Assembly (NCBI GenBank): GCA_015039315.1
Contig: WIDE01000204.1
Coordinates: 1-29,894 of the forward strand
Source: Clavulina sp. PMI_390
Lineage: Eukaryota; Basidiomycota; Agaricomycetes; Cantharellales; Hydnaceae
Direction: 5' to 3'
DNA: 29,894 bases
A model generated the notes under the pieces. It saw nothing but the letters and a program-made list of their open reading frames with translations, was not told where the DNA came from and made no database searches. Made by a program: the position numbers and the translations under genes. Position 1 is the stretch's first letter. Each line of letters begins with the position of its first letter. Of the stretch, positions 4,683 to 29,894 are shown piece by piece.

Positions 4683-5811
4683 ATGCACGGTCCAAAAATT
4701 ACTGCCTGGCCTTATACACTGCTGATTATTCTCAGTGTCCTGGTTCCTCATGCATCCTCAGCGCTGCTCAGACCTCGCGATACTTGTGGTATTGTGGACA
4801 CCGACTTGGTCATCCAGACGCAAAATAAAGGCACAAAAGATTATGGCACGCTGAACAACGTCTGTATCTGGTACGTACCCGTGAATCTCGTATTTCGTTG
4901 CCGCGGGCGTTGAGGCAGTCTTCGCATCAAGTTTCATTACTCACGCCTTCGTGGTACTCTCTTTGTAGCCAAAGTGGAGTTGATAGTAAGTCTTGGCTTC
5001 CCGTATCCAAATTTTCAAATGTTTATACAGTTTCGGACCACTCATCCCTGCAAATTGGCCAAAACTCTCACTATCTCTGATTCCGTCATTTTCTTTCCGC
5101 ATTTTCCTGCTAGATTTCATCCAGACGAATTCAGTAGCAATGGCCGCAGCTGCCGATGCGGGCCAAACAGCAACCGAAAACGCGCTCAACCAACTTATCG
5201 CCAGCGGACAATTCGTTCCTTCGTGCCCAGCTGCTCCTGCCCCCAGTGCCCGCAAGCGCTCACCCGCCGATATCGCGCGCCACGAGCACCGATGCGAATA
5301 CGGGCTCACTAAATGTGGTCTGCGTACCGGGCTCTCATATGCCGAAGCTTTCGCCTTGGCCACCTCCGGGCCCACACGATCCCAACAGGACGGTAACTAT
5401 TGGCAGAAGAAGCGCCCGAGCTCCAACACTCTGACGGCAGAAGACTACGCCATCCTTCGGGCTTATGAGTGCCTCGACGTCCAAACCCACCTCGAGAGTT
5501 GCGGTGGCTGCGCGGAGCCTTACATCTTTGGGCTTCTGCCTTGGGAAGTCGAGAGTCTGGTTCCAGGCGAGGACTGCACAGCCCAGGAAGGCGTGAGTGA
5601 CGTGGAGTGCTGGCGTGGGTCATGTCTCGTGAGGAAGTGCAAGAAGGGGTGGAACCTTGTTGCGATCGAGGGTGACAGCCAGCCGATGCGATGCATACCC
5701 AAGAGTATGGCAGCCAACGCGAAGGCCCATGCTGGTGAAATCCACTTCAACGCCCTCGAAAAGCGTAATAATGACGCCTCTGGTGACGGGGGTGCACAGC
5801 TTGCCGCCTGA
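4683..5811 (+). CDS. PriA-like secreted cysteine-rich protein (three exons)
   Basis: Exons are 4683-4870, 4969-4985 and 5114-5811, giving 903 nt and 300 aa. Residues 1-26 form a signal peptide (TAWPYTLLIILSVLVPHASS), so the protein is probably secreted or wall-associated. It then carries the layout of the basidiomycete PriA family (named after Lentinula edodes PriA): VCIC followed by NFIQTNSVA at residues 60-80, then YECLDVQTHLESCGGC near 187-202, then DCTAQEGVSDVECWRGSC and KCKKGW with regularly spaced Cys. Family biochemistry is poorly known; PriA is abundant in developing fruit bodies. The middle exon is only 17 nt, but its phases (2 in, 1 out) and the family motif support it. The gene sits between the two paralogous F-box genes. 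The C-terminal tail after the last Cys is low-complexity. Confidence 0.85.
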
Positions 5812-6641: not shown

Positions 6642-8630
6642 ATGGATAGCTATTCGGCTCGCGAGCCTCAATTTCGGTCACCAAATCTGACCTCTCTTCC
6701 TAACGATCTCCTCATGGAGATCCTCTCCCACTCTCTTTCACCAACAGACGTCATCTCACTTGGCCAAGTGAGTCGTTCTTTTTGATATTACTTTCCCATG
6801 CTCTGTACGGTCTATTCTGAGTTCTCTTATATCTTTTTAGACTTGTCAAATGCTCCGCTCGTTCACCAAGGCCGACGCTGTCTGGCGACAAGCCCTACTT
6901 CACAAGCCCCCTTACATACCTAAATTAATAACCTTTCAACTTGCAGATCTCTCCGGTCCTGGTCATATAAATGACGCCAATACGCCAACGACGGACCATC
7001 CCACTTCCTCCGTTTCCACTCATGTTGAGAAGTGGGGTAATAACCTACCGCGCCGTTCTGCTTCCACGCTTCGCGGCAAATACCTTGATGCTCGTCGGGC
7101 GCGAAAGCTCCTTTGCGGAGAGGTCTTATGTATCGAAACGACGAACGTCATTCTTGACGGCTGTCCGCGCTGTGACATATACGGAATGGGATTCACTTTG
7201 GCAGGAGAAATTTTTTGGATCTCCTTTGACAAGGAACTCCAGTTATTCGATCTGCGTGATACTCAGGTCAACAAAATCACCATCAAGTTCGCACCAGTGA
7301 CGGTTCCTCCGAAGCAAGATCTAAAGAGGAACTGGTACCTCGCAGAGGTAGCCCGCTGGCGGGGTGAAGAGGGAGTTATGTTGGTCAGCGACTCGTGGTA
7401 AGTAGCTCAATGACTCAGAGTGTGGATAAGTTAGTAATTTAGGGCCTTTATTGATAGTATCGAGAAAGAGTTGGATGTGTTCTTCCAGCCACTACCCCGC
7501 CCAACTCAGAGCCAACCGCAGGATTCGGGAAATGGGATTCAACGGCCAATTTTGATGTATAAAATTGCTCTCCCATCGATGCCGCAGCGGGTCACTATCT
7601 CCGGACACTACCTAATAGTATCGATGCAGGGTGCATTGAAAATAATCGATTTGATCTCCCCACGGGAAACATTTTCACTCCATGAGACGGTTCGTGTTTA
7701 CGGCTCTCAGTGGTGCATCTTCTCCTCTAATGAGAATTTGGCATTCGCATTCAGCCACAGTCCTTCCTTTACGAAATCATCGATGGCAAGCATCTGCTCG
7801 TTTCAGGCAATACGGGTAACGGGTCGACAGTGATGTGTTACTCCCTCGATGAGCTTCGCGACGGTGTTGGTGGGGTGTCGAAGGCTTATTGCGCACCGAG
7901 CGTCCAGCTCAAGAAGCTCCTTTGTCTCCCACATTCGTTCTCACTCGACCCGGATACATCAGAAATGAACTTGGCCTTTTGGGGCCATTCAGCAGAATAC
8001 GCCTGGAATCGACCGCCTGGCTTAGAACTCAGACGTGGGTCAGTCACGCCGCCAGCTGCTGCCACTGGCAATGGTAGCTCGTCGATCCACCTGGAAGCCC
8101 ACCCACGTTATAGCAGTTATCCGAGAGATATTCTGTTCCCTGAGTTAGATTCCATGTGGATCGATGAAAGCTGTCTATCACGGACCGAGATGAAAGAGAT
8201 CGATGCTTGGGGCGGAATAGATGCCGCGCTCGAGATCGAGCTCCAAAGCATCTCTTCTGTGCAGGGATATGATTGCTTGGTGAGCCTCGTAGAAAGAGTT
8301 TCAGGCATATCAGACCTGTTGCTCGATTATTTAGACATGTCACCGGATGAGAAGGCAATCGTCGTCACCCAGATCGGACCCTCAGGGAATGGTACCGGTC
8401 TCATCCACAAGCCACTTCATACCTTTTCTAGCGCCACCAAGAAGCTGTGCCCACTGATATACCCCGACTACAGTGAGTTCCGGTGGAACGAAGCTTCAGG
8501 GAGGTTCGCGTTCATGGACTGCGATTGCATACCCCCCGAATCAGATTCCCCCGTCACCATTTCACTTTCGCTACTGTGCGAGCATCGGTCCGCTGGTGAC
8601 TCTAATATGGAGTCGGAGCGGGCAATATAG
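6642..8630 (+). CDS. F-box protein B, paralogue of protein A (four exons)
   Basis: Exons are 6642-6767, 6841-7397, 7458-7689 and 7755-8630, giving 1791 nt and 596 aa. The F-box is at residues 16-55 (LTSLPNDLLMEILSHSLS, PTDVISLGQ, then TCQMLRSFTKADAVWRQALL). Like protein A it is a predicted SCF substrate adaptor. Matching segments include GMGFTLAGEIFWISFDKELQ (A: NMGFTAKGEIFWVWLGQEVQ) and GHYLIVSMQGALKIIDL (A: GHYLIVKIQDTLRVIDL). All three introns share position and phase with gene A, and exon 2 is 557 nt in both. Intron 3 (7690-7754, gttcgt...ttcag, branch ctaat) joins two different frames. Intron 2 could also end at 7442, adding five residues in frame; 7457 is preferred because it aligns to A without a gap. 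The start is the only ATG upstream of the F-box in frame. Confidence 0.84.
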
Positions 8631-12926: not shown

Positions 12927-15900
12927 CTAGTTCGCACCAAGACCAGGCGAACTAGATCTACTGCTACTGCTGCTCGCAAACCTCTCCTCGACACGGCTGC
13001 TCAGCACATTCAGCATCTGTCTCAGCTCATCCAGCTGATCAACATCGAGGCTTTCCACACCATCAACATTGCCCATCGCGATCTGCAGTGCCTCAGTGAG
13101 CTCTGCGCTAGACGATCGGCGCATGACTTGACGCCCACTCGTGGTCGTAGCCGAGCTGGAGCTCGCGACAGGCGTCCCAGCACGAGGCGTGCTACTCGGA
13201 AGAACCTCAAACGAGCTCGACGACGACATGCTCAGGCGGGACTTTTTGCGTTCCATGTGCTTCTTGATCGGACTCGATGGAAGTTGAACAGAGTCATCGC
13301 TGCTGGGATTATCATCTGACGAATGAGGCTTGAGCTGGGAAGAATGAGAGCGAACGTGGGATGAGGAGGCAGGGGTTTGAGTGTGAGGATGGCGAGCGAG
13401 TGCAGGTGATAGGACAGTATCCCCCAGCCCTGGTAGGCGTGGCCCACGCATGGCGCTTTGGGGAGTTTGAACCTCAGTGGGCGATGAGGGTTCGGTAACT
13501 GAGTCATCTGGCAATCAAAAAGTAAAGCATATGTGTTAGGGTTGTGAGTGTGAAAAGGAAAAGAGGATGCGAACGCACCACTTGATGGCATCTCGGGATG
13601 AGCAACCCCCGGCTTCTCAACGGACGACGTGAGGAGGTGCAGGCGAAGCTGTGATACCCTTGAGACCGAGCGCAACCGCTTTGCAGGTACCGGCTCCGCA
13701 GCTAGATAGGGTCCGATTGCAAACATTAGTTCCTGATCTTGAAGGTTAAAGGCCAAAGCAGGGCGTACCAGGTGATATCTCCTCTTCCGCTGCCTCGACG
13801 TTAACAGACCTTGTCCTTTTAAGAGATCTCTTTGGAGTCTGCGCCATCATGCTCAATTCCGGTTGACTTTGCGTTGCCCTGAGATCTTCACCACGAGCTT
13901 TGGTCGCCGTCGTCGTTGTTGCAGTCACTGCTGGTGGCGGGGCTGTCGACGAGGTCGAAGGCTCAGGCGCGTCCACATCGGTAGTCGCAGTGGTCGATTT
14001 GCGGCGAGCGAGGAACTGCTTTACAGTCGGCAACTCAATCTCGAGCTGCGCAAACGATCGCTTGCGACGATGTGTGGCAGGCGAGTCAGGGGGCGTGAGA
14101 CGGTCTGAAGCAGAGCTCGCTGTCGATATCTGCGGGGCAGACTGCGATGCGACAACACGCTGAGAAGAGGATTGAGATTGAGACTGGGACTGGGATTGCG
14201 AAGACCCAATGCGCCTGCGAGAGAACCCAGTTGCTTGTTTGATGAACTGCGCGACCAGGTTGAAGGAGGTAGACCTCGAAGCGACGGGCTCTTCGTCCGT
14301 GTCCGTATCGGAGTCGACGGCTTCCTCATCCTCCTCATCCCTTGATGCGCCACGCTGGCGTTTTGCGCGTTGCGACAGGGATACATCAAAGTCGTGGTCC
14401 CTAACACGCTTCCTCGTCGAAGCTGCGTTCACGGGTTTTGAGATTTTGGGAGGCGTCGTCGGAAGAGTCGGGATAGATACAACAGCGCGGCTGCTCTCGG
14501 GATACTGAGCCATTTCTTCTGGTGCATGCCCATCCAGGATAACAGAAGTAGACGCAGCAACATCAGACTCCTCTCGAGATCCAGTATGTGAGGACCGTTG
14601 ATCCTCAGCAGAATCATCCTCAAGGCTCGCAAGCTCACGAGGATCAATGACTCGGGCATGCTCCACATCGGAGTCGCTCACCTCGGCCACGAAGGCACGG
14701 GGTGACCTGTGTTGCGCAATCTGAACCCGCTCAGGCGTTTCAGGTACCTCAGCAAAGTCATCAAGGCTCAGAGAACTCTCGATGAAATCCTCCTCTTCTT
14801 GCTCTTGTTCCTGCTCCTGCTTGGCTGGTGGAAGCGCAGATGGAAGTGATGCGGAAGAAGGCTGGCGGGGTTCCACAGCGGCCTTCTGCTCGAGGATGTC
14901 AGAGGTATCAACGATTTCGATGGAATCGTCAAAGCTGGATCGGCGGCGGAGGTGTGGAACAACGTGAGATTGAGAGACCGTCATCGAGATGTCATCTGAG
15001 AGCTGAGTGTTATCGGCCATAAATGACGGGGCATCTGCATCCTGGATCTCACTGATATCAGCAACGTTGGTGGGCTGACGGGCCTCAGGTTCAAAGCCAC
15101 TCTCTGGCGCTGTGGGTTCTACAGCTGCAGCAACTTCGGCAGCGGACATCTCAGAGCTGCCAAGCTGCTGCTCATCCACCGATGTGCGTTCAGGGACGAT
15201 GGAGGCCGCCGCAGGGAGATCTGACACGCCTTTGTCCTCCACCTCGCCAACAACGACGCCCGAAACAGGGGGCACTTCGAGCGAGGACGAAACTGGAGCA
15301 TCACCCGTTGACATGTCATCCAGGACACTTTCGACACCCGCAGCAAAGCCCAATGACTCATCGCCCCTTGCGATAAAGGCCTGCAAGTGCTCTTTCAACT
15401 CGACAGAGTACTCGTATCCGTTGCTTATGAGCTCGACGGACGCCTCCCTGAACTTGGCATTCCAGAAGCTCCTGAAGATCGGAAGGACGAGACCTGGCAC
15501 TGGAATGTGGGTGAACGCGGATGTGAGGATCGGGGAGATGATATCGAGAGTATGAGCCGTAGCAGGGATGGAGGGAGACTTGAGGGCAGTGAGGATAGAG
15601 TTGTAGAGAGGCACGATGAACTCATTGTATTGCTCTGCTGTGAGCGCCTCGTCATGGTCATGAAGCCATGGCAGCAGACCGTTTTTCAGGAGTTGCAATC
15701 GAGTGAGAAGGGCGGCGGGGGGAGTAGAGGCGATGATGGAACCGAGATGGGGTAACAGCAGGATCACAGATGGAATATACGCTGCACGAACCCCGGTGCG
15801 CGCATCGGATGGCCTGTTCTCTGAAAGGATGTCGGTCACGAAGGAGAGAAGCGTGGCGAGCTGTGCCTCATCGGCCGCAGTAGCCTCTGCATCATCAGCA

Positions 15901-18900
15901 ACAACGAACTTCAGCAGCTGCTCGAGTGCAAACAAGCAGGCATCGAGCCCATAGATCCTCCCCAGCGAAGGCAGGACTGGGACAAGCTTCGCCGCCACGA
16001 CCACATTCGAAACACCCTCGAATCGAGCAGCCAAGACTGCCTGGTAGACCAATGCCTCCCAAGTGGGAGAGAGCCTGCGCCATGAGAGCGATGGAGGGAA
16101 GCATGCGCAAAGGGAAGTGAGATGCTCCCAGTAGAGCTCAATCTCCTTCGTGGCCTTGACTGCAGCACACTCCCAAGCCGTCGTCCAAGCGCTGGGACGC
16201 TTAGCTGGTGTGTCGACATTTTCATCGTCGTCGTCCTCCGGTTCCACAACTCCATCCTCCGAAGCAAAGTGGGTAGTAGTAGTGGAGACATCAGTCATGG
16301 ACGGCAGTTGACGGCGCTCGCTCAACACACCCTCACGGATCGCCTTGGGCATCTCCGTCAGAGGATGCGAGAGACCATACTGGATGACAACCCCGACAGT
16401 GGTCTTCCACAACTCCCTCGTTGCCTCCTCAGTGAAATGCTCCTCTTCCTTGGCGAAGCGTACAAGCAGACCCAGCATGTCCGTGGCAAAGCTTGCAGGG
16501 AGAAGACCAGGCTCGAAAACATGCGTCACTGTCGCGAAGAGGCTGTGAGGAACGGCCACGCGGCAGTATTGCTCATCGCGCCCGCTGATCGTGGCGGGGG
16601 TGGCCCACGAGGAGGGCGGGCGCGTCATGAAGAACTGCAGTTGATCAATGATGTGTTTGGAAAGCACGAGGCGATCTTCCGTATCGTGATCAACACTCTT
16701 CCGGGCGGTAAGGAGGGCTGTCCACAGTGCCTGGACGGTTTTCTAAGGGAATGGTGGAGCGTCAGGAAACAAACAACGAAACGAAGCAGGTGGCCGGAAT
16801 TTGAACTCACCCCTATACTGAGATCCTTTGTCTCCACGCCCTCCTTGAGCACGAGCCTCCAGCACTTGACGAGCTCGTTCCAATGCTCTCTAACCTCATC
16901 GCCATCCAACGGGCGGATATCCGCAACTTGGATCACCTCCGACGTCAAGATAGACTTGGCATTGCTCGTAAACGCCTTGACTGGGTCGGCCCCCGCAGCA
17001 AGACCAGCGCCAACACCAATGAACGCACTGCCATTCAGGATGGGGGTACTAACCAGCTTTCTCCAATCCCACGTCTGATCCTGTTGCTGCTCCTCTTCCG
17101 TCTGCGACTCCAGCAAAGCCGTGTCAAAAGACGCAAGGAGGCGGAAGAAGATGTTGATCTCGTACTGCACGCGCTCGCCGAGCATGCAGCGGAGGATCTG
17201 CAACCCAACACCAACAGCCTTTTGGTCTGAGCCATCACCCACACACGCGCCCATGACAGCGACGCCAACAGGGTGTTGGAGCATTTGCGGCTGCGCGACA
17301 ATCGCGCCTTTGCCACTACCATTCGCTCCGTCGCTCCGTCGGGCCTGGCGCATGACGAGCCCATGCTCATCATCCACATCCGTGAACCCATCGACGCCCA
17401 GCCGGTGTCCATCCTCCCACGCAAACGCTAGCATACTCCAAAGCGCACGCGAGAGGAGCTTGACGCCCGGCTCGCGGCGGTTGTTTAGCCCTTTGTTCAT
17501 GCTGCTGAGGAAGATCTGCATCCAGCGCTTGTTCGCGAGGAAGTGGTGGCCTGCAATGACGAGGATGCTGCCTAGGACAGCCATGCCCCAAGCGGCTTCG
17601 ACGCCGCCAGCCGTGAATGTCTTTTCGAGGATAGGGGCAAGAGCAGTGGAGGTCGCAGGCTGAAGGACCGCTTTTCTCAAGAGAGGGATATCTGTGTCCT
17701 CGTTCACACAAACCTGTGCGATCGTCCCAAGCGCTTGAGCAGCCTTGAAACGAAGCGCCTGCGTGGGCGATGAAACGAGGTGGGAGAGCAGGGTGGGAAA
17801 GATCTCAGCGTAGAAAGGATTAAAGGCAGGGAGAGCGGCGTCTGCGATGGTCTGAAGCGCGCCGAGGCACTCAGATGTTGCTCCCTTCTTACCCTCGCGC
17901 CCAAAGTCGCCACGGATCCCGCGTGCAAGGACGCTCATGATATGGGAGGCGAAGGGGGAGATGATGGGTGAAGGAAGGTGCTGCACTTGAAGTACTGCTG
18001 AAGCAAGAGTCCATGTCTTGCGCGGGTTCGGCGTAGGAAGAGTAGGGGCTTCTAATATCGACAACACGGTTGCGAGAAGCGAGCGAAGACGATCCTCTGT
18101 ATCGTAGGAGGCACAAAGAGTAGTAAATTAGTATGCGAAGAATGAATGTCTGAGAATGAAGCTCACCGTCGATCAGGGTGTACAATTGAGGCACCCAGAA
18201 TATCAGGGAGACGACCTTGAGGGCCGCGGAGCACACCATGTAAAGATCGCGAGCATACGTGACCTCAAACTCGGTCAAGCCGCCACGCTTGGTAGTAGTG
18301 GAGGATTTCGCTTTGGGCGTCACTTCATCATTGTCCTCTTCATCAGCAGCAGCCTTCTGACTTCCCTCGATGTCACTCGAATCGGGAGTCTCGGGGAGAT
18401 AGGATGGGGTAGGCCTTGCGACAGGATCAACGAGAGCACGCTTGATATCGCGCTCCAAAGCGGTAAGAATAGGGTCAAGATTCTCTTGGAAGGGTCGCAG
18501 TGCTTCAGGTTCTTCGATATCGCTGGGAAAGCGAGAGCGCAAGCGGGAGAAAATGACGGTCCACGCTTCAATGATGTCTTTGATGGTGAGCGGGACCGTG
18601 GAAGCAGGGAAGTCTTGAGAGCTGAGGGGAGTGCTGATAGGTGTGAGGTCCGCAAAAATGGTGGATGGGGAGGCGTCTGGAGAAGAGGGTAGTGGTAGTG
18701 TAGACTCGATGAGAACTCTGAGAGGTGAGACAATGAGTGATTCGTGTCGCAGAGCGTCCGCCTCGGGCTCTGGCGTAGTGTGGCGTGGGCTTCGTTCCAC
18801 AGGCAACATTAGGTTCGCAACGACTTTCTCCGGGTCCGCCATGATGTCGCCACTTGACGACAACGAAGAGGACGAGGAGACGGATGATAGTACAGAGGAA

Positions 18901-19211
18901 ATAGATATGTTTCGTGGGTGAAGAACAAGCGAAGGGCGCTTGAGAATAGATCGTGAAGGTTTGTGGAGCGCCGCGCTGGACGGAATGCGACGCGGCGGTC
19001 CTGGTGGCGTATGAGGATGGTGCGAGTTCTTTGCGGAGAAGAAAACAGCGCGTCGCGGCGCGAGGCGCAGGGGGGTGATGGGTGGACGCGACGGGGACTG
19101 TACAGAGACCGAGCTGGCAGTCTTGGTGGTGGTAGCGGGCGACGACGGCGAGCGGGAGAATACGTTTTCCTTGCGCGAGCGACTTGGTGGTGGCGTGAGC
19201 GGTGTGCTCAT
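12927..19211 (-). CDS. rif1: Rif1 orthologue, telomere/replication-timing protein (five exons)
   Basis: Exons from the 5' end are 19211-18167, 18096-16811, 16742-13769, 13701-13579 and 13507-12927, giving 6009 nt and 2002 aa. Rif1 recruits protein phosphatase 1 to chromatin, sets replication timing, limits telomere length and influences break repair. The N-terminal tail has two PP1-docking motifs, RAVFF (residues 54-58, RVxF type) and SILK (88-91), in the order known for budding yeast Rif1. From about residue 205 to 1270 the chain is long, helical and HEAT-like (for example TIKDIIEAWTVIFSRLRSRF and ALRFKAAQALGTIAQVCV), matching the Rif1 N-terminal domain. After that comes a long disordered acidic/Ser-rich region with SQ repeats near 1625, basic patches, and a short helical C-terminus (LDELRQMLNVLSSRVEERF). 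Introns are 67-71 nt; intron 1 has a perfect tactaat branch site. The start is the first ATG in frame; the frame further upstream opens only with GTG. Confidence 0.9.
14161..14208 (-). repeat. Ser-Gln dipeptide repeat in Rif1
   Basis: The minus strand reads SSQSQSQSQSQSSSQ at about Rif1 residues 1623-1637. Five SQ units in tandem plus a sixth after SS make a dense SQ cluster, the target motif of ATM/ATR-type (Tel1/Mec1) kinases. Codons vary between CAA and CAG and TCC and TCT, so it is not a pure hexamer microsatellite. Confidence 0.75.
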
Positions 19212-20158
19212 TGCTGATGATGCTGACGTCGGTGCTGTCTTGGTCTCAGTCAACAACCACGATGCCAGCGACCACTCTCGCACTCTAGTCGCGTCTCAGA
19301 TATGAAAACGCGCGTTTTCGACCAGTTATCGCGCAGATTATTGGAAATATAGACGTGAATGGGTCTTGCGACACCAGGGCGACGTGCTTTGTGGCGCGTT
19401 GGTGTCGACAGTGGTGGTCGGTTTCAGGTGGATGAGAAAGTTGAGTTTGGAGGCACCTTCCGGTCCAATATGATTACATCAGCACCAGGGTCGTTCCGTC
19501 CGATCCGTCATAATTCACACAACTGTACTCATAGTGGAGCACTAGCGAAAGAAAGGCAAGGGGGAAAATAGAATATGTCGAGGCGCCGATTTCGTACTGG
19601 GGTTAGCAACGGCCATATGGAAGACTACAACCACCCCTTCACGCCTCTTTGGAGGCTCTCTAACGGCTGAAATAGTGCATCACTTGTGCAGCTGCCCTCA
19701 ATCAACAGTATAGATAGCCGTTTTTTGTCAAAAAGGCTGGAAAGCGAGACCGATCCTCATGGGCATGGACAGAGGGTGTTCTTTGTGATTAGATGCTACT
19801 TGATGAGAAGCTAACAATCTTATGGATGCATGCTCAAACTAGCATTAGTCTCCCAGTCACGTTGGTCCATCTATACCGACGTTGTAACGACCCTGGCGTA
19901 TATGGACACTGCTTTCTCCAATCTTCACCAGCACTGAAGCAGGAAGTTATTCACACCATTGACACATTGCAAGATCATTCATTTTTCCGCTCCCTTCTCT
20001 GTCCACTACAAGTGTGTCCTACGTGCGATTCAGACTTTTTTAAAACAAAGAAATCCATCCATCGACCCGAAAAGCCGCACTCCCGTTTCAGAGTCCGTCA
20101 AGGGCAACAACCTTGGTGCATGCTAGTGTGGACATGGTCCAGCTCCTCCCACAGAGCC
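19212..20158. other. Rif1 promoter and caleosin 3' flank
   Basis: The caleosin gene upstream is also on the minus strand, so the right part holds its 3' UTR and the left part the Rif1 promoter, including the palindrome at 19304. No gene seen. The plus ORF that starts at 19793 runs into caleosin exons and is treated as a shadow. Confidence 0.5.
19304..19319. promoter_or_regulatory. 16-bp palindrome with ACGCG cores, Rif1 promoter
   Basis: GAAAACGCGCGTTTTC is a perfect 16-bp palindrome about 95 nt before the Rif1 ATG. It holds ACGCG on both strands, the core of MCB-type sites bound by MBF at G1/S genes in yeasts, though not the full ACGCGT. A role in S-phase expression of Rif1 is inference. 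Confidence 0.4.
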
Positions 20159-24026: not shown

Positions 24027-27000
24027 TTAAGTATTTGGAGACATATCAACCAAAGAACGCCAGACAATGTGCATATCCGGTCGCTTTACAGGATTTTGGT
24101 GCCACATGTCTTTCAATAGTGACCATAATTGATCAGCTGTTTTCACAGAAAGACCTAAAACCTCTGCGGCTGGTCGCTTCGGCCGCTTTCCCCGAGTAGC
24201 AGCTTGCGAGGCTTGGAAACTTTGTTCAAACTCGGCAAACGGCTTCTGAAGAGTAACCAGCTGTAAGATTGTCATCGCAAATCCATAACAGTCAGAAGAG
24301 TGTGTGGTCCGCCACTTCGAATTGCCCTTGAGAGAGAGTAGCTCGGGCGAGGTGAAGCGATCAACCCCTCCAGCAAGAATCCCAGTTCCAATCCGGGTTT
24401 GCTCATGTTTAATGCGGGAAAGACCAAAATCGCACAAGAGACCATGGCCACGGCCATCTACCAGAATATTTCTCTTTGAGATATCAACTATGTCAGCAAC
24501 TGAAGTATCGTAAACATACAATATACTGTAGGTACTAACCCCATGAAGGTCTCCATGAATAACCGGAGGGGATAGTGCATGCATATAGCTCAATGCAGAT
24601 GCAATTTCTACAATCTGCTCGAAATGACTGTGAAAAAAGGACCACAACGCAGAACGACGCAATAGAATGTATATGTACGATTGTGAACGTGGCGGTGGGC
24701 CTGAGTCGACTGGTCAAGTTGTGCAGATATTCCAAGGCGCATCCATTGTCCGCGAGGGGCGTTATAATTGAGAGAGGATAAGCATGACTTTTTGATACGC
24801 CAAGGACGGAAAGAATATTGGGGTGCTGAAGTCGAATCTGCGTCACGACTTCTCGACGAATTGCCTAGCGGTTCAATCCAATACGGTAAACACTGATTAA
24901 AGGACAAGGAATATAATCCGCTCACCGACAAGATTTTTAGGCCTTCAAGAGATTCCCAATTTCCATTGTCCGGAGGACGAGCGTCCCGAACAATGACCCT
25001 TTTGTCAAATAGTTCCGCCTCCCAGATGGTAGTCATTCCGCCAGAATCTCTGAACGTACGATTTTTTACAACAATTTCACGGACACAGCTAGGGAGCCTT
25101 CCAGATACTGAGACAGCATCCTGAACAAGACTTAGGGCTTGAGGACATAAATCTCCTAGCTTGGCGTTTGGGTCATTGAGCGCCTGTTTCAAGGCACGAA
25201 ACACGTCAGTTTTGCACCCGTGTAGGACAAAAACGACCGAATCTCCGCACAATATTAGCCTCCTCAATTATTAATGGATTCGGCCATGGTAACTTTACCC
25301 GCTGGCTACTTTTCTGAACACGATACAAAATGGTTCGTGCGAGAATATGGAGACCTCCTACAGCTACAGCTTTTCCCAGTGAGCTAGCATGTCCTATCAG
25401 CATATAAAGAGGTTAAGCCTGTCGAAGGGATAACGAACTCCGTGAAATCTGACAAGATTTCGACATTTCCCAATGCGCGCCGTAATTCGGATCTAAGGTA
25501 TCTGCTTGCACCGAACCCCCCAGTAAGGATTAGGTACTGCTGACAGTGATGCAGTCAATAAGCTCAATATAATCATTGTAGATGGTAAAAAGAACATTAC
25601 AGTTGGAGTATTGGCCATTTGGTGGCCAATCAAATACGGCGTTACGCTCGAAATTATCCCCTGAACCACGCGGTCGAAAATTGTTGCAAATTCCGATCTG
25701 GAAATATAGCTTGTTAGTTATTTTGGGCCTTCTTGGTCTGTAGCATTGTGAGAACCCATTGAAGTAGTATATCCCCTTCCGAATAGGCAGAATATCCGAA
25801 CTGAAAGCACGATGGGAGATTTTGACGTCACACGAGCGGTCGGCCCTAGATGTGAACCTTCGCTTGGCATGCCACCTGAAATTTATCTCCCCATCAGTTA
25901 GGATATCTGTCAAATCTTCCACACGTAAGCTCTCAGTCTCGGTAATTCGCCTCATTTGATTTCTGAGGTAGTCAATAAACTCGAGATCCACCTGAAAACC
26001 ACCTGGTGCGAGACCTGATGGGTCCCAATTCAGAATAAAGTAGAGCAAAAAACCAATCAAAGACCAACTACATTTTGGGGCGGTCTCTTCCAGTATGCGA
26101 GTCGCATTATTAAAGCCGCGTTCTAGTTTGTAGGATGAAATGCTGGTTGTGGGTCCACCAGAATCACAGACCACGATTCTCGTGCCTAGCTAGAATGCGG
26201 ATGAATGGGCGGGAGAGCCATGGCGGGTGCGGCGGGTGCCATCGTAGTGGTAAGTGAGAGCTCACCATCCTTGGCCTGTCCAGAGCGATCGATGGTATCA
26301 AAGGCAAGACGACAGCTTCCCCTTCCTCAGCAAAATGGAGGCGACTTTGTGTGTCCTCCAATGTCATTATACCTGCCTGAGCAACCACTTGCCGCAGGAA
26401 TCCTTGCTGGATATCACCCCAACCATTGGGATGAGTGAGGAGGATTTCTGCTCGCGCTTTCCAAGAGGGCCAGGGATCTGCGCCAAAATAGTCCCTAAGG
26501 TGACGCCGTGTTTGGGCCAGTAAATAATCCAAGAAATCGGCATAAACTCTATCAATTGTGATTCCTTCCGGGAGAGCTAGCCATAATTGTGGGAATGAAG
26601 CCATCATTATCTGTCTTTGAGTCAGGCAACCTTTTCACGCACGTTTCAGGAAATCAGACTGTCGTCTTAAGTCGTGCGCTGGGTAGAAGCGCAATTTGAA
26701 TCGCTCTACTAGCTTGTAGCCATTTTCCTCTATATTATCCCTCATGTGTGACGTGTAAGCGTCAGCTCCGCATGCTACCAGCTGGCAGAATAAAGAAGGT
26801 TAAGCCCTTTCCTTCGCTCACATAATGGCGTAAAGCCTACTTGATTATTGCTTGAATAAACTAACACAGAAGGGGTATGCTCAACCCCGGCGGAAATCAT
26901 ATCCTCTTGACCCTGCCAACGAGACACATTTGATATGAAGGGCTCTGGACCTAGATAATTCCTGGTTAATTATATGGAACTGGTGACCGCCGGATGTACA

Positions 27001-27100
27001 AACACTCAGGACGGCTCCAGTAGACAGAAACTGCCGACGTGATGGTGCCAATGTCAATAGATATCGCAAGACGCCCCTGGGGGCTATCTTTCGATGTCAT
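24027..27100 (-). CDS. HSPA12-like Hsp70 ATPase fused to a protein kinase (13 exons)
   Basis: Exons from the 5' end: 27100-27004, 26950-26841, 26781-26643, 26576-26266, 26189-26069, 26014-25756, 25697-25601, 25539-25439, 25383-25251, 25183-24926, 24864-24689, 24627-24540, 24473-24027; 2337 nt, 778 aa. Residues 1-456 follow the HSPA12-like Hsp70 ATPase fold: phosphate-1 motif LAISIDIGTITSAVSVYW (11-28), RWQGQED, LVACGADA, LPEGITIDRVYADFLDYL, ILLTHPNGWGDIQQGFLR, HFAEEGEA, phosphate-2 motif VVCDSGGPTTS (225-235), adenosine motif YLILTGGFGASRYL (380-393). Residues ~500-778 are a kinase: REV with the alphaC Glu, LQHPNILSVLGV, VIHGDLHGRNILV (catalytic Asp627), CDFG (645-647), TSPELL, NPVKRPD. The VAIK Lys appears to be Arg522. 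The ATP-grasp and kinase halves join through intron 25184-25250 (ctgac branch site). The 24628-24688 junction is least certain; an alternative uses other in-frame sites (donor 24682). Two genes remain possible, but the kinase half has no ATG before residue 506. Confidence 0.75.
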
Positions 27101-28812
27101 GAAATGGACCTGTCCGACTGACTGTAGCGCAGGTCAGTTGATAGATTGTGCGTTCTACCACGATCCAAATATTAGACTATCTGCACGTATCACTGGGAAA
27201 CACGGTCCTCACGGGGGACGGTTGCCACAGTTGAGCTGGTAGTGAGCAATGCGCTGTGTACGATGTAGACCACAGTGGCTAGAGGCGAGTGCACGTTGTT
27301 GCGGCGTGTTGATGGAGGGTATATGGTATAGTTGATCAATACTGCCTCATGCTTGCTATGAGCGAAAATACAGAGGCCTACCCATGGATTTATTATGGTC
27401 TCGGTGGCGTGCCACAACTTATCGATTATCACCAGATAGAGCAACAGATTTGATTCGCCCAATCACCGATGAACATTCTTCTGGCGGTCAAAAGCGAGGC
27501 TCGGAATTAGCAAAACAGTCTAGATACGACCCTGTGTCCATCTAAATATACTATGAAATTCATACCATAGTCCATCTGATACATAAGATCATCTTCCAAG
27601 GAGCCTGAAACATCATGCTGACCCGACAGCGTTTGACGCAGAGAAACATACCTAAACAAAACTTCTGGGGTAAACAGAGTTCGGAATAGGAGGGATGTAT
27701 AGTTGATCATCAATGTTGCGCAAGAATCCTGGTCAGGAAGAAGTCAGGAAATGTTCATTCATCACCTTTAGGCATTGCACGTGAAAAAGTTCATAGTGTG
27801 CTATCGGACCAGATATTACGGCGCCTCCGTGGTACAATTTGTTCTGATACAGGATATGGAAGGACCCATTGCGACAGATGATTATTTTGCGCGGTAGTTG
27901 AGCTCATCAACAAATTTATCTGTCTGCGGACATTTTTACTCTTCGACCAGTACGTTACAGTTTCTTTTTATTCACGATCCCAAAAACCTAGCTCATATAT
28001 GATCGGGCTATATTGTTCCGCGAGCAATCACCGAGGCAGAGCAGCAAGCGGGCATGCAGGTCCAAACTATGATCATTATAGTGTTTCTCACATAAGCGTC
28101 CCGCATCGAGACGATGGCGACTAGAGTATAGAATTGATAGTGAGCTTGGCGCTGGCAAGCTAAAGAGGAGACACCGAGTTTGGCCCTGTTGACGCCCCGC
28201 GCTTAACTTACGATTCAATATTGGTTTACTAGCAACCAGCGTTTTGGTGTCAACGCCTCAAAACGGCCCGAAGCAAGTTGCGCGATGGCCCTTTACTCTC
28301 CTCAAGGTTTCACACAAATTTAACCTACGCCGATCCTTTGTCTCTGTATGCGCAGCCACCATCGTCATCAACAGAAAATGTTCGAAAATGGGTTTCATAT
28401 GCGTAACTCGATTTCCGATTGTGGGCTCCAAAGTCAGCTGTCATCGAAAAGGGCAAGAGGGCCACCACTCAATTCACCACCGCGGAGCCGAGCATAGAAG
28501 GCGAGAGCCTGGTGCAGTGGCCACCGATGATGTCACCAGTGCCTCATTGAGCGTGGCGTCGTACATGTCCGCCATGTCGTCCTCATCGCCAATGTCTCCA
28601 GGTTAGGGTGCATGGCTCACTACTATGCCAGCCTCTGACTCCTCATCCGACTCCGCGGTGGTCTTGCAGGACTCTCTTATCACTTTTTTGTAACATAGAT
28701 GCAATATGATATGTGGTGCTCCCTGTGACGCTTTGGATTTCCTATAAAGCCTGACACCTGTGACACTCTCCCCACATCCCTCGACACACTTTATCCCTAC
28801 CTTTCACCAACG
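27101..28812. other. 1.7 kb intergenic region, possible minus-strand relic
   Basis: Divergent promoter region for the Hsp70-kinase gene (-) and the Ish1/Msc1 gene (+). On the minus strand two open stretches, 27903-27766 and 27728-27507, read like protein (for example NGSFHILYQNKLYHGG and YTSLLFRTLFTPEVLFR) but belong to no family I know and are separated by only 37 nt. A plus-strand ORF at 28244-28606 has no motif. Confidence 0.4.
28743..28748 (+). promoter_or_regulatory. TATA box of the Ish1/Msc1 gene
   Basis: Exact TATAAA, 65-70 nt before the ATG at 28813, followed by a pyrimidine-rich leader (cactttatccctaccttt) typical of strongly expressed fungal genes. Confidence 0.65.
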
Positions 28813-29894
28813 ATGAGACCAACATTCCTCATCTCTTCATTACTGCTCGTGTCGAGCGCGTCCGCCTCATGGTTCTCATCTGAGCGTGAGTATCGAGAGG
28901 CGTCCGCCTCACCTCTACCCAACTTGCGCGCCTCTTCACCATTCGACGTCACTAACTTGTCCTCCCATTCCTTCCTCTCCACAGAGCCCGAGTATAGCTC
29001 ATGGAACTCTGCCCAACTGAAGGCGTGGCTCGACGAACACTCCATCTCCGTCCCAAAAGGCTATTCGCAGGAAGAACTGTCCAAGCTTGTTGAAGCCAAC
29101 TGGTACGCCGGCCAGGCATGGTCTGAGAAACAGGTCGAGTCGGCGAAAGAGCAGTATGCCAACGTCAAGACTGCTGCGTTCGATACGTGAGTGCTGGCGT
29201 TAGTTTGAAGGTGTGGAAACTGATCGTTCCTCCCGTTGACAGTTGGTCGGAAAGTCAGCTGCGCGACTTCCTCGTTAAGCAAGGCATCGTTGCGCCATCA
29301 GGGCCACGCGAGCAGCTCGTCCTGGCTGCAAACAAGCAGTTCGTTCTATTCCATTTTTTTTTGGTCAATCTTACTCCATTGCTCAATCCGTTCGTGTGTT
29401 GCCACAGGTACCGCGCGTATACCTCTGCCGCCTCCTCACTCAGCGCCGCAGCGTCCACTGCCGTCTATGGTGACAAGATGTACCAAGCGAGCAAGTCTGT
29501 GTCATCCCTCTCCAGTGCTGCCACCTCTGCCGCTGCCACCGCATCATCTGTCCTCACGTCCGTCGCTGCCGAGACCGCCGCCGCTGCACAATTGAAGCTT
29601 GATGAGACGAAAGACTACGTGAGTATTCTACTGTCCTCCTTCTTGCCCGATATTTGCGCGCTTCGACGTCGTCGCGTCTTCGTGCGGGGAAATAAATGAA
29701 TCGCCCAGTGACGTCATACTGACTCCTCTTCTGGTTTGGATTCACAGGTTTACTCAACATGGAGTGACAACGAGCTAAGAACTTGGCTCGAGGAGAAGGG
29801 TGTCATCAAGACCAAAACCCAGGCGACGCGTGATGAGCTCCTTGCCAAGATGAACGAATACTATGCCACCGCTGCCGGCCCTGTCTGGGAGGCG
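28813..29894 (+). CDS. Ish1/Msc1 family stress-response protein, 3' end missing
   Basis: Exons are 28813-28885, 28985-29186, 29243-29338, 29408-29618 and 29748 to the window end, with 243 codons visible. The family (fission yeast Ish1, budding yeast Msc1) is stress-responsive and linked to the nuclear envelope and ER. Residues 1-19 are a signal peptide (TFLISSLLLVSSASAS). Then come Ish1-type repeats with W, a following SxxxL pair and a short helix: SSWNSAQLKAWLDEHSIS, TWSESQLRDFLVKQGIV and STWSDNELRTWLEEKGV. Each is followed by a loop and a second helix such as YSQEELSKLVEANW. An Ala/Ser-rich helix lies between repeats two and three. Every intron junction keeps frame (phases 1, 2, 2, 0), each with gtgagt-like or gttcgt donors. 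Family members usually have more repeats and reach about 400-600 aa, so a large part lies beyond the window. Confidence 0.88.

Follow-up and report, generated by a model that had tools for sequence, protein, structure and literature searches.

Among the matches listed in our search of the open-access literature, the chaperone-kinase fusion that comes nearest to the gene reported here is the DNAJ-PKAc fusion of fibrolamellar carcinoma, which is of another kind but likewise joins a domain of the chaperone system to a protein kinase. In the available part of that source, the fused domain is one that recruits Hsp70, not Hsp70 itself, and the fusion is a cancer fusion in human liver (PMC6533061). 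No Hsp70-kinase fusion of the kind described below was among the matches listed, and the main texts of PMC2838846 and PMC3937382 contain zero occurrences of "hsp70" and "heat shock." By analogy only, the gene may also be compared with WTK1/Yr15-type plant tandem kinase-pseudokinases and animal Janus kinases, in which, as far as the accessible portion of the source goes, a degenerate nucleotide-binding module lies beside a kinase, as it does here (PMC6170490); the module in our case is an Hsp70-type domain. The accessible sections of two other papers describe expansions of TK/TKL kinases in Agaricomycetes, including a large TKL set in Laccaria bicolor (PMC2838846) and the FslK lineage of mushroom fungi, to which probable enzymatic activity is ascribed (PMC3937382). 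The kinases treated here are also lineage expanded and of TK/TKL type; in contrast to the FslK kinases as described there, the domains that we aligned lack the beta-3 Lys. The agaricomycete Hsp70-like proteins that we recovered (P0009 to P0015) have the same nucleotide-binding domain without an attached kinase. Homologues of HSPA12A/B were reported only in vertebrates among the genomes examined, according to the available part of PMC2266713, and the term HSPA12-like is used for our gene as a label by resemblance, not by comparison with HSPA12 sequences. New here is a multidomain kinase with a putative regulatory module for which no precedent was found among the matches listed.

We analyzed a window of 29,894 nucleotides of the coral fungus Clavulina sp. 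PMI_390 (Agaricomycetes; Cantharellales), located on contig C118 of a 39.4-Mb genome (301 contigs). On the minus strand, a gene of 13 exons with GT-AG introns of 53 to 76 nt runs in frame from an ATG at 27100 to a stop at 24027. The earlier note had proposed this 13-exon frame, and the gene model agrees with it, except that the predicted product has 776 aa instead of 778 and exon 11 ends at 24679 instead of 24689. Exons 1 to 9 (25251 to 27100, minus strand; 27100-27004, 26950-26841, 26781-26643, 26576-26266, 26189-26072, 26014-25756, 25697-25601, 25539-25439, and 25383-25251) encode residues 1 to 455, an Hsp70-type nucleotide-binding domain assigned from the gene model, relatives, and Hsp70-type PDB matches. 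Exons 10 to 13 (24027 to 25183, minus strand; 25183-24926, 24864-24679, 24614-24540, and 24473-24027) encode residues 456 to 776 (321 residues), a TKL-like kinase with a conserved N-terminal block, assigned from the gene model, Pfam, and PDB. The spliced-alignment script placed the same 12 introns in the window; its query was our own model, so this agreement is a matter of self-consistency only.

The two halves meet, as had been claimed, at an ordinary phase-0 intron (25184 to 25250, minus strand, 67 nt, GTGCGG...AACAG), which has a corresponding phase-0 intron at two other places in the genome, the C254 and C295 loci. An alternative phase-0 donor (CGG/GTAAAG) would give a 115-nt intron. Within the kinase half, no in-frame ATG occurs upstream of residue 50 of exon 10, which lies in the glycine-loop region, again as the earlier note had it. 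Reading through the join intron leads to a stop codon at all three fused loci (near 25206 in the window, 22 nt before the kinase exon starts), and an Hsp70-only form could therefore arise by intron retention. We infer a single transcript encoding one protein, with the Hsp70-type domain followed by the kinase; for the best explanation as a whole, of which this is a part, we see an even chance.

Other genes in the window were observed in passing. On the plus strand, two similar-looking genes (21-2150 and 6841-8627), the first of which starts with an F-box-like stretch (Pfam E value of 0.0056, below the cutoff), are probably a duplicated F-box pair. The same strand encodes a CPL1-like protein at 4990-5808 (PF21671, 3.1e-17) and an Ish1-type protein at 28729-29187 (PF10281, 5.9e-9). 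Adjoining long open frames of 500, 998, and 468 aa occupy 13749-19295 on the minus strand. The 500-aa frame had a weak HEAT-repeat match (E value of 6.7e-4, below the cutoff), and the 998- and 468-aa frames had no Pfam match; we take these frames to resemble Rif1.

The Hsp70-type half was identified through its relatives and through profile matches in PDB; in Pfam, the window half alone had no match at an E value of ≤1. Exons 1 to 9 encode the motifs IDIGT (phosphate-1, conserved; 27044 to 27058, minus strand), LLTHPNGWGDIQQ, CDSGGPTTSIS (phosphate-2; 26136 to 26168, minus strand), and LTGGFGASRYL, the phosphate motifs being placed by sequence comparison. A search with residues 1 to 453 found at least seven related proteins at an E value of ≤0.001 among 7997 candidates scored, namely, P0009 and P0010 from Clavulina sp. 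PMI_390, P0011, P0013, and P0015 from Pisolithus, and P0012 and P0014, which are unnamed. Identity to the window half was 52% for P0009, 43% for P0010, and 25 to 29% for the other five. P0009 (DL93DRAFT_910128) and P0010 (DL93DRAFT_2233925) are encoded at the C173 and C106 loci, respectively, which match them at 97 to 100% off the introns, with lower scores for stretches that cross introns. In Pfam, PF00012 was weak and below the cutoff on P0009 (E value of 0.0062) and P0010 (0.31) and was absent on the window half and on P0013. A profile built from the window half and five relatives matched seven PDB sequences at an E value of ≤0.05; these were mostly Hsp70/DnaK chains, weakly matched (best E value of 0.0034), and one was a t6A synthase. 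We also predicted a fold for the relative P0009, not for the window protein itself, with six relatives in the alignment. The model was of low confidence (pLDDT of 49.7). The best 50 of its 189 Foldseek matches at an E value of ≤0.001 were Hsp70/DnaK entries or complexes containing one (E values from 1.9e-7; probability of 1.00), but the TM score by query was only 0.23 to 0.30. By sequence relation, the window half belongs with the Hsp70/ASKHA nucleotide-binding domains.

The Hsp70-type half ends at about what we take to be the normal end of an Hsp70 nucleotide-binding domain. The kinase exon comes soon after that end, and there is no C-terminal substrate-binding domain; P0012, P0013, and P0015 have a longer C-terminal region, in whose place the kinase stands in the window gene. 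The last residues in the public model of P0009 are QPESRGCGRP, which look like SQKAVAVGG read out of frame (C173, L058 2251-2557); the actual gene probably contains an additional intron and has ...FFSLVFY as its end.

Of the Hsp70 landmarks named in the earlier note, phosphate-1 and TGGFG are both intact. Phosphate-2 is present but altered, its last Asp being replaced by Ser. We take this residue to be equivalent to Hsc70 D206, and in Hsp70 this Asp helps to hold ions. The last Asp is lost in all three fused copies (Ser, Ser, and Asn) and is kept wherever the motif was found in unfused copies of this genome, that is, in 10 of 12 unfused loci (C173, C106, seven on C101, and one on C90); at the remaining two (C106:13949 and C270), we did not find the motif. 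Since the fused copies are related, the loss may be a single event. The seven loci on C101 lie on one contig, at ~184 to 246 kb.

The kinase half matched PF07714 (E value of 1.1e-27) and PF00069 (7.9e-23) in Pfam, and its best PDB chain was RIPK2 (7.6e-22), followed by CTR1, with TNNI3K among the top rows. The HGD, DFG, and SPE motifs reported earlier are present in exons 10 to 13 (HGDLHGRNIL, DFG, and SPE), with the Asp of the HGD catalytic loop (24549 to 24557, minus strand) and the DFG motif (24423 to 24431, minus strand) kept in the alignment. What had been missed is an Arg codon (24986 to 24988, minus strand; residue 66 of the kinase half) where the VAIK Lys of strand beta-3 should stand. 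A kinase that loses this lysine is usually crippled. We aligned 15 kinase domains, the window domain and 14 from fetched loci, which are a subset of the family and leave out the degenerate first kinase of C295. The beta-3 Lys was Arg in all 15, fused or not, and the alpha-C Glu, the HxD Asp, the catalytic Asn, and the DFG Asp were kept in every one. The first kinase of C295 has His at the beta-3 Lys position in the spliced alignment. The earlier note had raised a nucleotide-sensing or immune-like receptor as a possibility. The altered phosphate-2 motif together with Arg for the beta-3 Lys argues against two ordinary active enzymes, and an atypical kinase under the control of a regulatory clamp would fit the sequences better.

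A DNA search of the same genome found the Hsp70 part followed by the kinase part at C254, where spliced alignment gave 12 introns matching those of the window in place and phase (1,0,1,0,1,2,0,2,0,0,0,0), with a second kinase unit behind. At C295, all eight Hsp70 introns are present, as is a join intron in phase 0; behind it lie two kinases, the first degenerate and the second better kept. The earlier note had looked to homologues with the same domain order as support and to homologues that always encode the halves as separate genes as evidence against a single gene; two homologues in Hsp70-then-kinase order thus exist in this genome, and the halves are not always apart. The second kinase units (L009 6015-7235 at C254 and L016 5659-4563 at C295) are sisters (100/98), and the introns placed between first and second units at both loci look forced by the alignment.

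The introns inside the two halves also occur in Hsp70-only copies and in kinases without Hsp70, and the join is therefore the telling part. The query for the spliced alignments of C254 and C295 was the fused window protein, and for that reason the join was checked separately with a composite sequence built from relatives without Hsp70. In alignment with the 15 kinase domains, the composite placed an exon start immediately after AG in 10, including those of the window and C254; 8 of these 10 belong to genes without an Hsp70 match. Of the five remaining domains, two belong to second units, where this block would not be expected; the alignment differed in the last three (L014, L015, and the second domain of L018). 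At C254, the join donor is probably CAG/GTATGA (phase 0; 71 nt), a better site than the one chosen by the script. An in-frame ATG ahead of the kinase block is absent at all three fused loci (at C254, a stop codon overlaps the acceptor), and an upstream Met is absent at 9 of 11 loci checked, the exceptions being L011 and the first kinase of L012, both non-Hsp70. In the relatives, the kinase exon is preceded by other coding sequence. That the domain order and the join repeat at three loci suggests more than chance.

Both halves have been kept as protein since the window and C254 copies parted, because codon positions 1 and 2 are far better conserved than position 3. Identity at positions 1, 2, and 3 was 0.63, 0.69, and 0.40 in the Hsp70 half (436 codons; 49% protein identity) and 0.70, 0.78, and 0.42 in the kinase half (312 codons; 60%). 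A gapped global alignment (identity of 0.64 in exons and 0.62 in introns) was rejected, as it did not separate coding from noncoding sequence. Codon-position counts were used in its place because gapped alignment raises intron identity.

The kinase belongs to a large family spread over contigs C232, C255, C163, C254, and others; its N-lobe gave 42 matches at an E value of ≤0.001 in the genome, a few of which are parts of one domain. Matches to the Hsp70 half numbered 34 and were spread over 15 loci, three of which (C118, C254, and C295) have a family kinase. No Hsp70 match was present in the fetched loci of the 11 other aligned kinases, and in the six of these 11 that were examined, another module lies upstream. 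The window kinase outscored its reversed control against all six upstream modules (narrowly at L012, 185 versus 164), and the residues at the expected HRD position are variable. Spliced pieces of four of the six all matched a kinase profile in Pfam, three of them above the cutoff (best E values of 2.6e-9, 2.6e-7, 1.7e-6, and 4.8e-4). Unspliced single pieces from L010 had no Pfam match, nor did the linker between module and kinase taken from L012. On the strength of these upstream modules and the shared intron, the Hsp70 domain sits where a degenerate kinase-like module was, and it seems to have replaced this regulatory module. The closest unfused Hsp70 relatives, C173 and C106, both stop shortly after the point equivalent to the join; no kinase match was found in the ~3.4 kb of readable sequence after the C173 copy or in the ~0.9 kb readable after the C106 copy, beyond which the sequence reads N.

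In the kinase tree, the fused-locus kinases (the window, the first and second of C254, and the second of C295) formed one clade (95/94) against the 11 others once the long-branch first kinase of C295 (end branch of 5.82) was dropped; with it included, the tree left the branching near the fused copies unresolved. In the Hsp70 tree, the fused copies did not group together, and the window half was nearest the Hsp70-only C173 copy. The kinase tree thus points to a single fusion that was later duplicated, a history for which the Hsp70 tree gives no confirmation.

Protein databases returned no fused product, either among 7999 candidates scored in a whole-protein search (at least eight matches, swamped by generic kinases) or among the 7997 scored with residues 1 to 453, a search that did find Hsp70-only relatives. 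Residues 440 to 580, spanning the join, matched no protein at an E value of ≤0.001 among 398 candidates. Because two Hsp70-only proteins of this genome were found and no fused one, public annotation probably splits or misses the fused genes. A BLAST comparison of the gene with plasmids gave no match.

The explanation that we consider most likely starts from the architecture, the common join, the constraint, and the motif changes, all of which are read from the sequences. Exon shuffling would have brought an Hsp70-like gene up to the phase-0 intron preceding a kinase cassette and joined it there. The cassette would have come from a family of degenerate-kinase-plus-kinase proteins, the Hsp70 domain taking the place of the regulatory module. 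The product would be an Hsp70-type domain without the usual C-terminal substrate-binding part, with a TKL-like kinase attached through a short linker. In a normal Hsp70, the nucleotide-binding domain docks and releases, and so controls, the attached substrate-binding domain. Here the clamp would bind nucleotide, or another ligand that closes it, and would hydrolyze poorly. Its open or closed state would pass through the linker and hold or release the kinase, so that allosteric control would govern a kinase output. Since both active sites depart from the consensus, switching by ATP may not occur. Taken whole, this account of an Hsp70 clamp, poor at hydrolysis, that controls an atypical kinase is one we believe about as readily as we doubt.

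The strongest rival is a fusion in which neither domain is catalytic and the protein serves as a scaffold or an integrated decoy, with the Hsp70-type domain or the kinase acting as bait for an effector of a pathogen or competitor. The Arg at the beta-3 position in all 15 aligned domains and the phosphate-2 Asp lost in all three fused copies would suit such a protein, as would the degenerate first kinase of C295 and the degenerate kinase-like modules of the parent family; by analogy, the available part of PMC6170490 notes a proposal that plant tandem kinases act as decoys. The other four catalytic residues kept in all 15 domains would be unusual in a pure decoy, and we consider this reading unlikely. 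The same active-site changes in both halves, the degenerate kinase of C295, and the failure to find a fused protein among the candidates scored could also mark a decaying family of weakly expressed, degenerate leftovers. A frame open across 12 introns, and protein identities to C254 of 49% and 60% with far less conserved third positions, speak against decay, which we regard as quite unlikely.

Alternatively, the locus could hold two genes or overlapping transcription units, one for an Hsp70-type protein ending near 25206 and the other for a separately expressed kinase. The stop inside the join intron after the last Hsp70 exon at all three loci fits such an arrangement, as do C173 and C106, which end just beyond the equivalent position and are followed by readable sequence that has no kinase match, and the absence of a fused protein among the candidates scored. 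The kinase exon, however, begins 22 nt after the stop with no start codon before its conserved block, the corresponding exon in relatives follows other coding sequence, and the join phase is identical at three loci, making two genes an improbable solution. Finally, with phosphate-1, the TGGFG motif, and the kinase Asp residues intact, an active Hsp70-type domain might recruit clients, either misfolded or specific, for an active kinase on the same chain, making the protein a chaperone-targeted kinase. This would call on a protein that has no substrate-binding domain, an altered phosphate-2 motif, and no beta-3 Lys, and we think it very improbable.

If the Hsp70 clamp does control the kinase, the gene is possibly a new kind of signaling protein. 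Extended further, and here we are doubtful, the fused loci might form a fungal family of Hsp70-gated kinases in which a clamp recruited from chaperone work replaced a degenerate-kinase module, its closure, driven by nucleotide or ligand, switching a kinase that works without the beta-3 lysine, possibly as an intracellular receptor for non-self or stress. That a kinase family should have Arg in place of the beta-3 Lys and nevertheless keep its other catalytic residues is a separate question. The locus also allows domain replacement at a fixed phase-0 intron to be tested, since the parent genes have a degenerate kinase-like module where the fused ones have an Hsp70-type domain. If the proposal is true, the allosteric clamp of Hsp70 would be reusable as a signaling switch that controls a kinase.
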